From positions 1-64,000 of the forward strand of contig QOQA01000002.1 of NCBI GenBank assembly GCA_003331875.1: 64,000 nucleotides of DNA, read 5' to 3'. Made by a program: the position numbers and the translations under genes. Numbering within the stretch: the first letter of the stretch is position 1; the number at the start of each line of letters is the position of its first letter. Under the pieces are notes generated by a model. It did not search any database. It was not told the DNA's origin and saw only the letters and a list, made by a program, of their open reading frames with translations. Positions 2,892 to 8,766 of this stretch are shown piece by piece. Source of the DNA: Cryomorphaceae bacterium. GTDB taxonomy: Bacteria; Bacteroidota; Bacteroidia; Flavobacteriales; Flavobacteriaceae.

Positions 2892-4430
2892 TTATTCAAT
2901 GCCCGGTTGCTTGATTTTATAACCAGCTTCCTTTTTAGCCAAATCGACCATATTTTTGACCTCTTTCAAAAGTTTTTTGGCATCATATACAATTCCATCT
3001 TTGATTGTATACTTTACTCCACCTACTCTTGTAACATTATTGTCATCATCAAGTTTGATAGCACCCGTACCATACAAAACTTTTAAATTTTCTAGTGGGT
3101 TTTCGTCAATCACTATGAGATCGGCAAATTTTCCAATCTCTACCGAGCCAGTTAAATCCTCTATTCCCAAAGTTTCTGCGCCGTTAAGGGTGGCAGATTG
3201 TATCACCTCTAACGGATGGAAACCTGCTTCTCTCAATAGTTCAAGTTCTCTCACATAAGCAAAGCCATAAAGCTGGTAAATAAATCCTGAATCAGATCCT
3301 GCTGTTACACGTCCACCACGGTTTTTGAATTCATTTAAAAAAATCATCCAGAGTCGGTAATTTTCTTTCCATGCAACTTCCTGCTCCGTTCCCCAATAAT
3401 GCCAGTAAGAACCATGTGAAATTCTACTTGGAGCATAGAATCCCCACAAGCTGGGCAGAGTGTAGTCGTCGTGCCATTCAGCCCGTCTCGCCCTATGTAA
3501 ATCTCTGCTTGCTTCATAAATATTTAACGTTGGAGAAATTGTAAAGTCCAGAGAAATTAATTCATCCATTACATTATTCCAATGATCAGAAAAAGGTTCC
3601 GCTGCTTGGGCCCACAATTTTCCAGCTTCCTCAAATCTATCCTGTTCATTTTGATAATTATAATTGGGTGGATAATTTTGAATAATTCGATTATTGAACA
3701 ATGCTTCAGGTAATCCATACCAATGTTCCATTGAAGTTAGTCCAGCCCTAGCAGAATTTAATACATTCCATTTTACAACATTCAGCTGTGCATGGTGAGC
3801 TGTTGACCTTAATCCGATTTTTTTATTTTCCTTAATCGCTGCATCCATTATCTCAGGTGGTGCACCAAAAAATTTTATCCCATCTGAACCCTCTTTTGCA
3901 TTATTTCGAACCCACTCTTTAGCCTCATCAACTGATTTTACTCTTGAGTTAAAAGTTGAAAAGGAAATTATTCTAGGAGCAATTATCTCATTTTTTAAAC
4001 TCTTGTTTTTTAATTCTAATTTTAGATTTTGAGAAAGTGAACCACCAGGCTCTCTAATCGTGGTTATTCCATGAGCCATCCACAAGTTAAAAACATATTC
4101 AGGATTGGCACCCTGAGATCTTCCTCCAATATGACCATGAGTATCTATAAATCCTGGTAAAATATAGCTGCCCTCACAATTTATTTCAACACCACCCTTT
4201 AATAATTTTGGTCTTCTATTTTCATTGATTGGAATTCCTGGATAACCAACATTTTGGATTTTTGTAATAATATTTTTTTCAATAACAATATCAACCGGTC
4301 CAAGTGGTGGTGCTCCTGTACTATTAATTAGTGTTGCACCCCTCAGTATTAACTGCTGATGTTGTTTTTCAAAAATTTGAGATAGGGAAACAACGGGGAT
4401 TAAAACTAAAATTAAAATTATTTTTCTCAT
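2892..4430 (-). CDS. Exported amidohydrolase family protein
   Basis: HGHIGG, GSDSG and GKFADLIVIDENPL motifs; signal peptide MRKIILILVLIPVVSLSQ. Start moved from 4454 to 4430 because the extra N-terminus is encoded by a tRNA remnant. Confidence 0.85.
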   Translation of the reverse strand: MRKIILILVLIPVVSLSQIFEKQHQQLILRGATLINSTGAPPLGPVDIVIEKNIITKIQNVGYPGIPINENRRPKLLKGGVEINCEGSYILPGFIDTHGHIGGRSQGANPEYVFNLWMAHGITTIREPGGSLSQNLKLELKNKSLKNEIIAPRIISFSTFNSRVKSVDEAKEWVRNNAKEGSDGIKFFGAPPEIMDAAIKENKKIGLRSTAHHAQLNVVKWNVLNSARAGLTSMEHWYGLPEALFNNRIIQNYPPNYNYQNEQDRFEEAGKLWAQAAEPFSDHWNNVMDELISLDFTISPTLNIYEASRDLHRARRAEWHDDYTLPSLWGFYAPSRISHGSYWHYWGTEQEVAWKENYRLWMIFLNEFKNRGGRVTAGSDSGFIYQLYGFAYVRELELLREAGFHPLEVIQSATLNGAETLGIEDLTGSVEIGKFADLIVIDENPLENLKVLYGTGAIKLDDDNNVTRVGGVKYTIKDGIVYDAKKLLKEVKNMVDLAKKEAGYKIKQPGIE

Positions 4431-4432
4431 AA

Positions 4433-4460
4433 TTTTTTGTGGGTGATACTGCACTCGAAC
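4433..4460 (-). pseudogene. Displaced 3'-end fragment of tRNA-Val (direct repeat of 6665..6692)
   Basis: ttttttgtgggtgatactg[c/g]a[c/t]tcgaac: 26 of 28 bases identical to the 3' end and flank of tRNA-Val at 6672-6746. Confidence 0.75.
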
Positions 4461-4570
4461 TCACCTTTTAAGCCATTCATTATCAATAGCTTAATTTTTT
4501 TGGGTGTTCCCAAAGGGATCACTCTATGTTCCTAGTAGTATCACTCAAACTCATACAAAACTAATGAAAA

Positions 4571-4599
4571 TTAATGTGGACAGATTCTGTCTAGATTAA
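4571..4599. repeat. 29-bp near-palindrome TTAATGTGGACAGATTCTGTCTAGATTAA
   Basis: Arms TTAATGTGGACAGA / TCTGTCTAGATTAA around a central T: one mismatch and one G.U among 14 pairs. Confidence 0.6.
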
Positions 4600-4638
4600 T
4601 TTTTAAATTTTAACATTAACTTATTATTTAGAAAACAT

Positions 4639-5505
4639 TTGATTCACATTATTATCATAAAATATGATGTGTTTAAAAAAAGACAAATAGATTTAGTTGT
4701 TATCTCAGATATTCACCTAGGTACACGAGGGTGCAGAGCTGATGAATTAATTAATTATTTGAGAACTATCAAACCTAAAAAAATCATTCTAAATGGTGAT
4801 ATAATTGATATATGGCAGTTCAAAAAAAAGTACTTTCCAAAATCTCATTTGAAAGTAATAAGAATACTCTTAGATTTTTTATCTAATGGAACCAAGATTT
4901 ATTATTTACCAGGAAATCATGATGAAGTTCTTAGGAAATTTAATGGTTATGGAATGAAAAATTTTAAAATTAGTAATAAAGCAGTTTTAAAATTAAATGG
5001 TAAAAAAGCTTGGTTTTTTCATGGTGATGTATTTGATATAACAATGAAGTATTCTAAATGGGTCGCAAAATTAGGAGGAATAGGATATGATTTTTTGATT
5101 AGATTAAATTTTACTGTTAATCGTTTTAGGGAATGGAGGGGTAAAGGAAAAGTATCATTTTCTAAATACGTAAAATATAAGGTCAAGGAAGCTGTGAAGT
5201 ATGTCAATCAATTTGAAGAGATTGCTCTTGGTATAGCTCGTGAAAATAATTATGATTTTGTTGTCTGTGGACACATACATCAGCCAGTTATTAGGGATCA
5301 AATTATTAAGGGGAAAAAAATAACATATTTGAACTCTGGAGATTGGATAGAAAATTTAACTTCACTGGAATACAACAATGATAGTTGGAGTTTGTTCGAA
5401 TATGATCCTAATAATTTCAAAAATCTAAAAAAAGAAAGAAAATCAACAATTGATAAATCAACAAACGAACTTTTTGAATCAATGCTTAAAAATTTTAAAT
5501 CATGA
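4639..5505 (+). CDS. UDP-2,3-diacylglucosamine diphosphatase (LpxH)-like metallophosphoesterase
   Basis: Motifs SDIHLG, NGDIIDIW, GNHDE, HGDVFD, GHIHQP. TTG start; exact start uncertain. Confidence 0.85.
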   Translation: MIHIIIIKYDVFKKRQIDLVVISDIHLGTRGCRADELINYLRTIKPKKIILNGDIIDIWQFKKKYFPKSHLKVIRILLDFLSNGTKIYYLPGNHDEVLRKFNGYGMKNFKISNKAVLKLNGKKAWFFHGDVFDITMKYSKWVAKLGGIGYDFLIRLNFTVNRFREWRGKGKVSFSKYVKYKVKEAVKYVNQFEEIALGIARENNYDFVVCGHIHQPVIRDQIIKGKKITYLNSGDWIENLTSLEYNNDSWSLFEYDPNNFKNLKKERKSTIDKSTNELFESMLKNFKS

Positions 5506-6560
5506 AAATTTTATACGCAGTTCAATCAACTGGAAACGGACATATAATTAGAGCAAATGAATTAATTAAAATTTTTAAAAATCGAGCTGAGGTTGATGTG
5601 TTGATTAGTGGAACTCAATCTTCATTAAAATTAAAACATGATATAAAATTTCAATATAAAGGTTTGAGTTTTGTATTTGGAAAGAGAGGAGGAATTGATT
5701 TTTTCAAGACATTGAAATTATTCAATCCAATCACATTTATTAAAGAGATTTATAATTGTCCAGTTAACAAATACGATTTAATAATTAATGATTTTGAACC
5801 TATATCTGCTTGGGCATGTTTATTTAAAAGAAAAAAAAATTGTATTGCATTGAGTCATCAATTCTCTTTATTATCTCATAAAGTACCAAAAGGATCAAAA
5901 GTGAATCTGATTCAGTCATTTATTTTAAAATATTATTCTCCTGTTAAGAAAGGTTATGGATTTCATTTTAAAAAATATGATAAAAATATTTTTTTCCCAA
6001 TTATTAAATCCAACCTTAGAAATAAAGAAATTAAAAATGGTTCTCATATAACTACATATTTACCATCATATTCAGATGAGTATCTTTATGCTATATTTTC
6101 AAAAATATACAAGCAAAATTGGCATGTTTTTTCCCAACATGCAAAGCAGAAGTATAGGAGAGGAAATATTTCATTTTTTCCCACAGGATATGAGGAGTTT
6201 GAAGAAAGTTTATTATCGTGTTCAGGAGTAATATGTAATTCTGGTTTTGAAACTCCATCTGAAGCACTATTTCTTGGAAAAAAATTACTGGTTATTCCAA
6301 TGAAATATCAATTTGAACAATATATGAACGCAGTTGCCCTAGACAAAATGGGAGTTAAAGTTCTAAAAACACTTAATAAAAACTCAATTAGTAAGATTAG
6401 AAAATGGATTAAAAAAGTTAATCTAATTAGGATGACTTATCCTGATGAAAATAAGAAAATCATTGATAGAATTTTAATTGATTATATAAGAGAAAAATCA
6501 GATAAAAAAATATCTAAAAATTTAAAATACTTTACAAACCAAAGGGATACAATACTCTGA
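5502..6560 (+). CDS. MurG-like glycosyltransferase (GT28/TIGR00661-like)
   Basis: N-terminus MKILYAVQSTGNGHIIRANELIKIF; C-terminal GVICNSGFETPSEALFLGKKLLVIPMKYQFEQYMNA nucleotide-sugar binding region. Confidence 0.8.
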   Translation: MKILYAVQSTGNGHIIRANELIKIFKNRAEVDVLISGTQSSLKLKHDIKFQYKGLSFVFGKRGGIDFFKTLKLFNPITFIKEIYNCPVNKYDLIINDFEPISAWACLFKRKKNCIALSHQFSLLSHKVPKGSKVNLIQSFILKYYSPVKKGYGFHFKKYDKNIFFPIIKSNLRNKEIKNGSHITTYLPSYSDEYLYAIFSKIYKQNWHVFSQHAKQKYRRGNISFFPTGYEEFEESLLSCSGVICNSGFETPSEALFLGKKLLVIPMKYQFEQYMNAVALDKMGVKVLKTLNKNSISKIRKWIKKVNLIRMTYPDENKKIIDRILIDYIREKSDKKISKNLKYFTNQRDTIL

Positions 6561-6671
6561 GAAAATGTTAGGTTTCTAATTACAAAAATTAAATTTTCAC
6601 TAGTTCGAGTCAAAATTTGGGAACACTTTCTAATTTTGTAAAGCGTTGATTATCAGTACATATTTTTTTTG

Positions 6672-6746
6672 TGGGTGATACTGGATTCGAACCAGTGACC
6701 CCTACCCTGTCAAGGTAATGCTCTGAACCAACTGAGCTAATCACCC
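6672..6746 (-). tRNA. tRNA-Val(GAC)
   Basis: Reverse complement GGGTGATTAGCTCAGTTGGTTCAGAGCATTACCTTGACAGGGTAGGGGTCACTGGTTCGAATCCAGTATCACCC+A folds as a cloverleaf; loop TTGACAG. CCA not encoded. Confidence 0.95.
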
Positions 6747-6817: not shown

Positions 6818-7042
6818 TTACTTCCCGTTTTGAATTGGATCAGTTTCGGGCATCAATTTATTTAAAATAGTGTAAACAGGACAAAATTTAGTAATTGGGC
6901 TAACAACTTGTAATGCACCCACTGCAATAACTATCCATAAAAAACTGAGATTAGATGTTAAATAAGATAACCCAACACCAGAAAGATAAAGCAAACCGCA
7001 TATAGCATCGTGAGCTCTTATTTTTGAAATATTTTTCTTCAT
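6818..7042 (-). CDS. Small membrane protein, DUF2892/YgaP-like transmembrane domain
   Basis: IRAHDAICGLLYLSGVGLSYLTS...LQVVSPITKFCPVYTILN pattern. Confidence 0.7.
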   Translation of the reverse strand: MKKNISKIRAHDAICGLLYLSGVGLSYLTSNLSFLWIVIAVGALQVVSPITKFCPVYTILNKLMPETDPIQNGK

Positions 7043-7081
7043 ATTTAATGGTTTAATTTATTAATATCAAATATAATCAAT

Positions 7082-8752
7082 TCACTTAAAATTTCTTTTA
7101 AAACTTTTAGATTTTTTCTTTTTTTTGTTTTTATTGAATCTTCTTTCTTTATGAGATTTTGAAGATTCATCTCTTTGACCTCTTTTGTTTGTTATATTTA
7201 CATTTACTGTTCTATTTTCAATTTCAAAATTATTAAAAACTTTAAAGATCAAATCTTTATGCTCTGGCTTTGAATTAAAAAAAGATTTTGTTTTTTGTAC
7301 ATCAACATTATATATATCACCAGGACTTAATGAGCATATTTCAGTTAAAAATTCTTTAAGATTCTGCCAATTATAGTAGTCCTTTGTTCCTAAATTTATT
7401 TGGTACCTCAAATCCTTACCTTTTTTTCCCTTGCTAGCTTTAGTTTCTTCCTCATTAAATGAATTTAATTTTTTTTCGAATTCCAAAGAAGCAATTTTTC
7501 TAATTAATTCTTCTTTACTAATGCTTTCTAAATTATCATTGATTGATGACAAAAAAGGATTTAAATCGTCATTAATATTTGTATTGATTATTTTGTCAAA
7601 ATATCCTATTATTTGATTTGAAAATACTTCGTTTTTTGACGGCAACTGAGATGGCTTAATATTAATTTTAAGTTTGTTTTGAATTAATTTTACCTTTCTT
7701 TTTTCAGAATCGGAAAAAAACAAGACTGACAATCCCTTTTTAGAAGCCCTACCAGTTCTGCCACTTCTATGGTTATATATTTCAGCTTCATCAGGTATTT
7801 TATAATGGATAATATGAGTAATACTTTCAACGTCTATACCTCTTGAAGCAACATCTGTGGCAACTAGAATCTTAATTTGTCTTGTTCTAAATGCCCTCAT
7901 GACTGAATCACGCTGATTTTGACTTAAATCTCCATGCAGTGCACCTGAACTATATCCATCTCCTATTAATTTTTCGCAAACCTTTTGTGTTTCTCTTCTT
8001 GTTCGACAAAATATTATCGAGTAAATATCAGAACATGAATCAATAAATAATTTTAAAGAATTATACTTATTTCGATTATTAATTAAAAAGCTAATGTGTG
8101 AAACATTTTCTGATGTTGAGTTTTTTTCTCCTACAGTAATTTTATAGGGGTTTTTCATAAACTCCTCTGCTATCTTAGACACCTCATTGGGCATTGTAGC
8201 CGAAAAAAGCCAAGTTTTTTTTGTTTTTGGAGTTTTAGCTAAAATGGATTTTATATCAGTATAAAAACCCATATTTAACATTTCATCAGCTTCATCCAGA
8301 ACACAAAAATCAATTTTTGAAATATTGACGTATTTCCTTTTTAACATGTCAAGCATTCTCCCCGGGGTTGCGACTATTATTTGAGCGCCTCTTTTAATAG
8401 ATTTTGCTTGTTCTTGAATATTACTGCCTCCATATACAGCAACAATATTTAGTTTGTCTAAATTAATAGCATACTTTTTTAATTCCTGGGTGATCTGTAA
8501 ACATAGTTCTCTAGTTGGAGAAATAATGAGTGATTGTGTAAACTTGGAATTAGTATCTATGTGATGCAGAATTGGCAACCCAAAAGCTGCTGTTTTTCCT
8601 GTACCAGTCTGTGCTAATGAAATAATATCTTTCGGTTTATCAATTAATAATGGAATTGATTTTAATTGAACTTCAGTTGGGTTTTTAAAGCCTAGTTCTG
8701 TGATTGCTGAAATAATAGGTTTGTTTAAACCCATTGATGAAAAGTCACTCAT
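7082..8752 (-). CDS. DEAD/DEAH-box RNA helicase with C-terminal DbpA-like RNA-binding domain and basic tail
   Basis: AQTGTGKTAAF, VLDEADEML, FSATMP, ATDVASRGID, HRSGRTGRA motifs. The called TTG start at 8761 lies in the predicted -7 box; ATG at 8752 preferred. Confidence 0.95.
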   Translation of the reverse strand: MSDFSSMGLNKPIISAITELGFKNPTEVQLKSIPLLIDKPKDIISLAQTGTGKTAAFGLPILHHIDTNSKFTQSLIISPTRELCLQITQELKKYAINLDKLNIVAVYGGSNIQEQAKSIKRGAQIIVATPGRMLDMLKRKYVNISKIDFCVLDEADEMLNMGFYTDIKSILAKTPKTKKTWLFSATMPNEVSKIAEEFMKNPYKITVGEKNSTSENVSHISFLINNRNKYNSLKLFIDSCSDIYSIIFCRTRRETQKVCEKLIGDGYSSGALHGDLSQNQRDSVMRAFRTRQIKILVATDVASRGIDVESITHIIHYKIPDEAEIYNHRSGRTGRASKKGLSVLFFSDSEKRKVKLIQNKLKINIKPSQLPSKNEVFSNQIIGYFDKIINTNINDDLNPFLSSINDNLESISKEELIRKIASLEFEKKLNSFNEEETKASKGKKGKDLRYQINLGTKDYYNWQNLKEFLTEICSLSPGDIYNVDVQKTKSFFNSKPEHKDLIFKVFNNFEIENRTVNVNITNKRGQRDESSKSHKERRFNKNKKKKKSKSFKRNFK

Positions 8753-8758
8753 GCGCGG

Positions 8759-8766
8759 CAAAAGTA
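8759..8766 (-). promoter_or_regulatory. Putative Bacteroidota -7 box (TACTTTTG) directly upstream of the helicase ATG
   Basis: TAnnTTTG consensus ending 6 nt before ATG 8752; -33 element not clear. Confidence 0.4.

Follow-up and report, generated by a model that had tools for sequence, protein, structure and literature searches.

The window, a 64,000-nucleotide stretch from an assembly of 1.08 Mb estimated to be 75% complete, contains an intact tRNA-Val(GAC) gene at 6671–6746 on the minus strand, identified by ARAGORN and Rfam, and an amidohydrolase gene (PF01979) at 2892–4430, also on the minus strand. Between them lie two plus-strand genes. The first (4663–5505) encodes an LpxH-like, calcineurin-like metallophosphoesterase (PF00149, 1.2e-13) whose closest relatives of solved structure are UDP-2,3-diacylglucosamine hydrolases; at 49.7 bits, it falls short of the 134 required by the UDP-2,3-diacylglucosamine diphosphatase equivalog cut-off, and we therefore regard it as a relative of LpxH, not as a certified LpxH. 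The second (5502–6560) encodes a glycosyltransferase of the MJ1255/VC2487 type (PF13528, Glyco_trans_1_3, 1.1e-27; TIGR00661, 1e-40, below cut-off). These domain matches agree with an earlier sequence-only reading of this DNA, which had placed a metallophosphatase and a glycosyltransferase here.

The two genes are bracketed by a 28-bp repeat of the tRNA-Val 3' end, with copies at 4433–4460 and 6665–6692, both on the plus strand and identical at 26 of 28 positions, as had been noted from the letters. A scan of the window found no third copy at up to 3 mismatches, and 0 of 100 dinucleotide shuffles of the window gave matches. The right copy is the end of the intact tRNA gene, and the left copy is a fragment only, as the same reading held, with nothing tRNA-like detected there by ARAGORN or Rfam. 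The window's other two tRNAs have no displaced 3' copy. The amidohydrolase ATG (4430, minus strand) lies 8 nt past the tRNA-derived part of the left copy, and the minus strand behind the intact tRNA reads CAAAAAAAATATGTACTGA, i.e., ATG-TAC-TGA; the ATG proposed at this position is present, but the stop said to follow it immediately is preceded by one codon (TAC).

We compared the locus among 23 genomes of the genus, with completeness of 55–87%. In G009, the amidohydrolase (100% amino acid identity) lies directly behind tRNA-Val, with the junction ...TTTTTTTCATAATTTTTGTGGGTGATACTGGATTCGAACC... and the same flank, CATAATTTTT, as in the window, and thus represents the empty site, free of the intervening pair. 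In the window, this shared flank runs into the tRNA fragment, and the tRNA itself lies 2.2 kb away. The suggestion that the amidohydrolase once stood directly behind tRNA-Val is borne out by this gene order. In G009 (L099, 8950–8975), about 10 nt separate the tRNA gene from the amidohydrolase start codon that follows it, so the tRNA and the mRNA may share a transcript, and cassette insertion would uncouple the two if they do. Four other genomes (G013, G017, G019, and G020) have no cassette end adjoining tRNA-Val. Seven other genomes of the genus encode the glycosyltransferase at 95–97% amino acid identity, and a further two at 84–87%; it was not detected in the remaining, incomplete assemblies.

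The left neighbor of the LpxH-like/glycosyltransferase pair at tRNA-Val differs among its carriers, being the amidohydrolase in the window, G007, and G021, a cl10 gene in G003 and G001, a cl18 gene in G016, and another cassette in G012. G021 and G012 each have a tandem of two cassettes, both of which end in a tRNA 3' fragment, in the orders amidohydrolase, pair, 621-aa protein, tRNA (G021) and amidohydrolase, 888-aa caspase-TPR protein, pair, tRNA (G012). The tRNA-proximal cassette of such an array should be the youngest, because only the intact tRNA offers the full target; in G012, the core of the distal fragment is the most altered (GTGGGGCATACTGG). In G014, a gene pair encoding a 70-aa protein and an RNaseH-like protein (PF04308) lies left of the LpxH/glycosyltransferase cassette (L088, 12616–13276), with no recognizable left end.

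Cassettes with unrelated cargo share a left end of ∼170 bp and a right end of ∼75 bp. The left ends (n = 10, 91% mean column identity) then diverge into different genes; the left-end alignments took in 10–13 ends and the right-end alignment 20 ends. In the window, the conserved left end spans 4439–4605 (plus strand) and comprises, from the outside in, the core formed by the left copy of the tRNA 3' end, an IHF-consensus-like site (TATCAATAGCTTA, 4481–4493, plus strand) within the dyad TTAAGC/GCTTAA, an arm-like dyad (GTGTTCCC AAA GGGATCAC, 4504–4522), an inverted part-copy of the core (GTGATACT) that reads AGTATCAC (4537–4544) and is conserved in the aligned left ends, and a 31-bp near-palindrome (ATTAATGTGGACAGATTCTGTCTAGATTAAT, 4570–4600) that matches itself on the other strand. 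The right end (6595–6670, plus strand) adjoins the tRNA and contains CACTAGTTCGAGTC and a T-run, the motif GGGAACAC at 6619–6626, and an IHF-like site at 6639–6651 on the minus strand, located by a motif scan. The IHF-like sites are predicted from sequence and are short motifs in AT-rich DNA, for which the WATCAANNNNTTR scan that located the left-end site gave a background of 0.25 per kb in the window. Within the genus, the left end was found only at the tRNA-Val site or, in G004, close to the end of a contig, the cassette of that genome being divided between contigs. The left end is lost or altered in G007, G008, G014, and G022, so part of the cassette family may now be immobile.

These shared ends bear on a simple alternative, that the left fragment is the remnant of a decayed duplicate tRNA-Val. 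The left copy does consist of tRNA 3' sequence alone, with the remainder of the gene missing, but the DNA that continues from the 28 bp belongs to the conserved part of the element and is not decayed tRNA, and no relative has a second full tRNA-Val at this place. The four-gene order of the window is also not universal among the relatives. Together with the empty site, the tandem elements with shared ends make tRNA decay untenable, and we reject it as having a negligible probability. The same observations support the original proposal of an integration footprint at a tRNA 3' end that lacks an integrase. The insert in the window is one member of a cassette family, and the lack of an integrase is common to all of that family.

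A lambda-type attP site follows the plan arm–IHF–core–IHF–arm. An excised cassette circle would join the right and left ends, with a predicted junction of ...ATAATCAGTGTATATTTTTTT from the right end to GTGGGTSATACTGGACTCGAACTCAC... from the left end, and the joined ends would match this phage plan. The left end also folds well (z = −4.55), which raised the possibility of an integron-like folded attC. However, 5 of the 10 elements have a broken outer stem, the dyads are largely invariant, and compensatory change occurs in two pairs only. With covariation this slight, we read the dyads as probable protein-binding sites rather than as a folded substrate; such predicted sites explain the folding equally well, and covariation does not support the attC reading.

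To follow the family beyond the genus, a blind scan of 84,980 species was run with a short right-end pattern and returned 27 stretches. Full right ends were found only at tRNA-Val(GAC), either in the genus of the window or in a second marine lineage, and the relatives recovered are labeled as uncultured Bacteroidetes, Flavobacteriaceae, or Cryomorphaceae bacteria. The tRNA-Val(GAC) of the second lineage reads GTGGGTCATACTGG, and at this site the lineage carries a 1.0-kb element with a DUF2927 protein (L177), a 1.4-kb element whose 368-aa protein is homologous to a cargo protein of G008 (L167), a 2.9-kb element with a GmrSD-type restriction enzyme (L181), and the right end of the LpxH/glycosyltransferase cassette itself, located at the edge of a contig (L182). 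Its base at core position 7 also occurs in the G001 fragment and in the distal fragment of G012, as if these two cassettes had come from the second lineage. The genus of G113 is represented by a single genome with its tRNA at a contig edge, from which nothing was recovered. In MED603, 31 bp of the right end (TCACTAGTTCGAATCGAACATTTGGGAACAC; L186, around 4615–4645) are found some 110 bp away from a tRNA-Val(TAC), with no other part of that end present; this may possibly mark a relative using another tRNA.

Between G001 and G021, the LpxH/glycosyltransferase genes are 99.8–99.9% identical in DNA, whereas three core genes across the tRNA are only 67–71% identical; in the reverse case, G003 versus G022, two of three core genes are 98% identical and the cassette genes 87–91%. 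The core tree and the cassette tree conflict, and AU tests on the cassette data reject the host clades (p = 0.0016 and 0.0002). These comparisons indicate that cassettes have recently been transferred between species. Such transfer need not involve a recombinase today: an ancient integrase could have placed the cassettes, which would since have spread as transformed DNA by homologous recombination through their ends, the tRNA, and the flanks. No integrase is resident, some left ends are degraded, and the shared 75–170-bp ends could serve as homology once one cassette is present, all of which suit this account. Set against it, a 99%-identical cassette lies precisely at the tRNA beside different left neighbors (G003/G001, G016, G021, G012), the outer homology at those loci extends little beyond the tRNA, and the adjoining core genes were not co-transferred. 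We therefore consider homologous spread an unlikely explanation, though the most substantial of the rivals.

Where, then, is the recombinase? No cassette ORF examined encodes one, there is no PF00589 match at the tRNA-Val loci examined, and no integrase-bearing member of the family was seen at these loci in genomes that are 55–87% complete. Tyrosine-recombinase genes number one to three per genome in the genus and are mostly Xer-like by length, and seven further carriers have a similar content; integrases are few and tied to other sites, the exceptions to Xer-like length including the tRNA-Asn-adjacent integrases of G003 and G016. Serine recombinases were rejected as the mover, as none was found in the 23 genomes. 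The G003 and G016 integrases (346 aa) belong to ordinary tRNA-Asn islands (L155, 1462–9574, and L156, 794–10817, respectively) bounded by tRNA-Asn 3'-end repeats, that of G003 holding type I restriction genes; these islands provide a contrast, within the same genus, to the integrase-less cassettes. We rejected their integrases as the helper, since neither the GGGAACAC nor the ACTCGAACT motif is present at these loci, where the repeated sequence is the tRNA-Asn 3' end.

The prevalence of Xer-like enzymes, the sole recombinases found in most carriers, raises the possibility that host XerC/XerD move the cassettes, as they do IMEX-type elements. The target, on the other hand, is a tRNA 3' end, which is typical for dedicated integrases and not for Xer sites, and the cassette ends have long arm-like flanks that are absent from the Xer sites of integrating elements. 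Mobilization by Xer is thus quite improbable.

Searches of mobile elements gave no donor of the ends. The core matched 19 viral contigs, and all but one of these matches are phage tRNA-Val genes (one cut at a contig end); the exception, L208, is a GC-rich and apparently unrelated phage in which the match lies beside the phage's own integrase. The cassette ends are absent from the viral contigs searched save for 22 bp of the right end in an intergenic region of the phage contig L230, which has no other element motif and was taken as a chance match. No viral contig searched encodes the glycosyltransferase, and the phage and plasmid collections match the tRNA only. A helper recombinase was found in none of the genomes, viral contigs, phages, or plasmids searched. 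That a resident helper was overlooked in every carrier seems improbable, even at 55–87% completeness, and a visiting helper, such as a phage or an ICE, fits best, with homologous recombination and Xer as its rivals.

Insertion occurs precisely where the tRNA ends on its 3' side, an empty site exists, the cassettes form tandem arrays, and common ends enclose different cargo. The explanation that we favor, and think probably correct, is that these are small non-autonomous integrative cassettes that insert site-specifically at tRNA-Val by means of a tyrosine recombinase supplied in trans. A cassette opens with a ∼170-bp left end, the first part of which is a copy of the tRNA-Val 3' end, continues with one or two cargo genes, and closes with a ∼75-bp right end against the intact tRNA; 4433–6670 of the window is one such unit. 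The tyrosine recombinase of a helper (a phage, an ICE, or another element non-resident in most carriers) would recombine the attP-like site of the circle with the tRNA 3' end. As the tRNA would be re-formed at each insertion, new cassettes would enter beside it and arrays would grow from there.

The cargo was probably selected for surface modification or phage defense, themes that likely hold across the family, judging from family names. Besides the LpxH-like/glycosyltransferase pair, cassettes contain the caspase-TPR protein (PADLOC caspase, 9.3e-14), the GmrSD-type restriction enzyme, a fatty-acid hydroxylase, a DUF2927 lipoprotein, and a weakly DUF4344-like protein. The LpxH-like and glycosyltransferase genes are also chromosomal neighbors elsewhere in the family and order (L014, L017–L020), so the cassette has taken up an ordinary operon. 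A protein without family assignment (379 and 368 aa, 47% identical) is cargo of two elements in two lineages (L096, 9348–10487, and L167, 3660–4766), in one case accompanied by the fatty-acid hydroxylase gene and in the other as the sole gene.

Small tRNA-marked cassettes of additive flexible genomic islands in pelagic bacteria are already known, having been described for Ca. Actinomarinales (PMC7771536) and for the tRNA-Lys island of Methylophilaceae (PMC10872708). Like those, as far as they are described in these sources, the present cassettes insert at a tRNA in streamlined pelagic bacteria, have direct repeats of the tRNA end, stand in tandem, and are exchanged between species or genera; our loci likewise show tRNA insertion with a far-edge repeat, and variable content, empty sites, and stacking among relatives. 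In contrast, the open-access text of those descriptions, as searched, gives no common attP-like ends around unrelated cargo, and the present cassettes are all 1–3 kb, at one tRNA, integrase-free, and from Bacteroidota. What is new is that tiny, interchangeable cargo is enclosed by attP-like ends common to the family, with the integrase entirely absent. CIMEs and the ssrA islands of Dehalococcoides (PMC3146451) are similarly arranged in tandem at the 3' end of an RNA gene, and some of these islands lack integration genes yet keep att sites, much as our cassettes have att-like sites at both ends and no integration or transfer genes. Unlike the present family, for which none was found at tRNA-Val, the Dehalococcoides arrays include integrase-bearing members (DsiB, 16 islands). 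Tycheposons, also tRNA-bordered cargo elements of marine bacteria, differ by their description in PMC10872708, being 4–200 kb and tyrosine recombinase-bearing; our cassettes are 1.0–2.9 kb and recombinase-free. Nor is there an integrase gene inside the element beside the tRNA, as in a classical genomic island.

Integron cassettes are comparable in outline, with small swappable cargo between common sites, growth beside a fixed platform, and a recombinase acting in trans. The platform here, however, is a tRNA gene, the cassettes have two distinct ends with a phage-like core instead of one attC, and no integron integrase stands beside the array (no PF00589 match at the tRNA-Val loci). It is tempting to view the system as a tRNA-based analogue of the integron, in which minimal cassettes with attP-like ends bring one or two adaptive genes to a tRNA-Val platform in pelagic flavobacteria and move between genera through a non-resident helper recombinase of viral or other origin, but we hold this broader view tentatively, at somewhat less than even odds.

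Streamlined ocean bacteria exchange flexible genes with little visible machinery, as illustrated by near-identical cassette copies in species whose neighboring core genes are only about 70% identical. The defined ends, known target, empty site, and tandem arrays make the movement of single genes between pelagic genomes testable, and the recombinase to be sought is one that recognizes the GGGAACAC arms. With the GmrSD restriction enzyme, the caspase-TPR protein, and surface glycosylation among the cargo, phage pressure may be what drives the exchange.

The upstream side of tRNA-Val is variable as well. In the window, a YgaP-like membrane gene and a DEAD-box helicase gene (6818–8761) lie between tRNA-Val and CtlX; CtlX is almost directly next to the tRNA in G009, G012, and G008, and the YgaP-like gene alone intervenes in G007 and G021.
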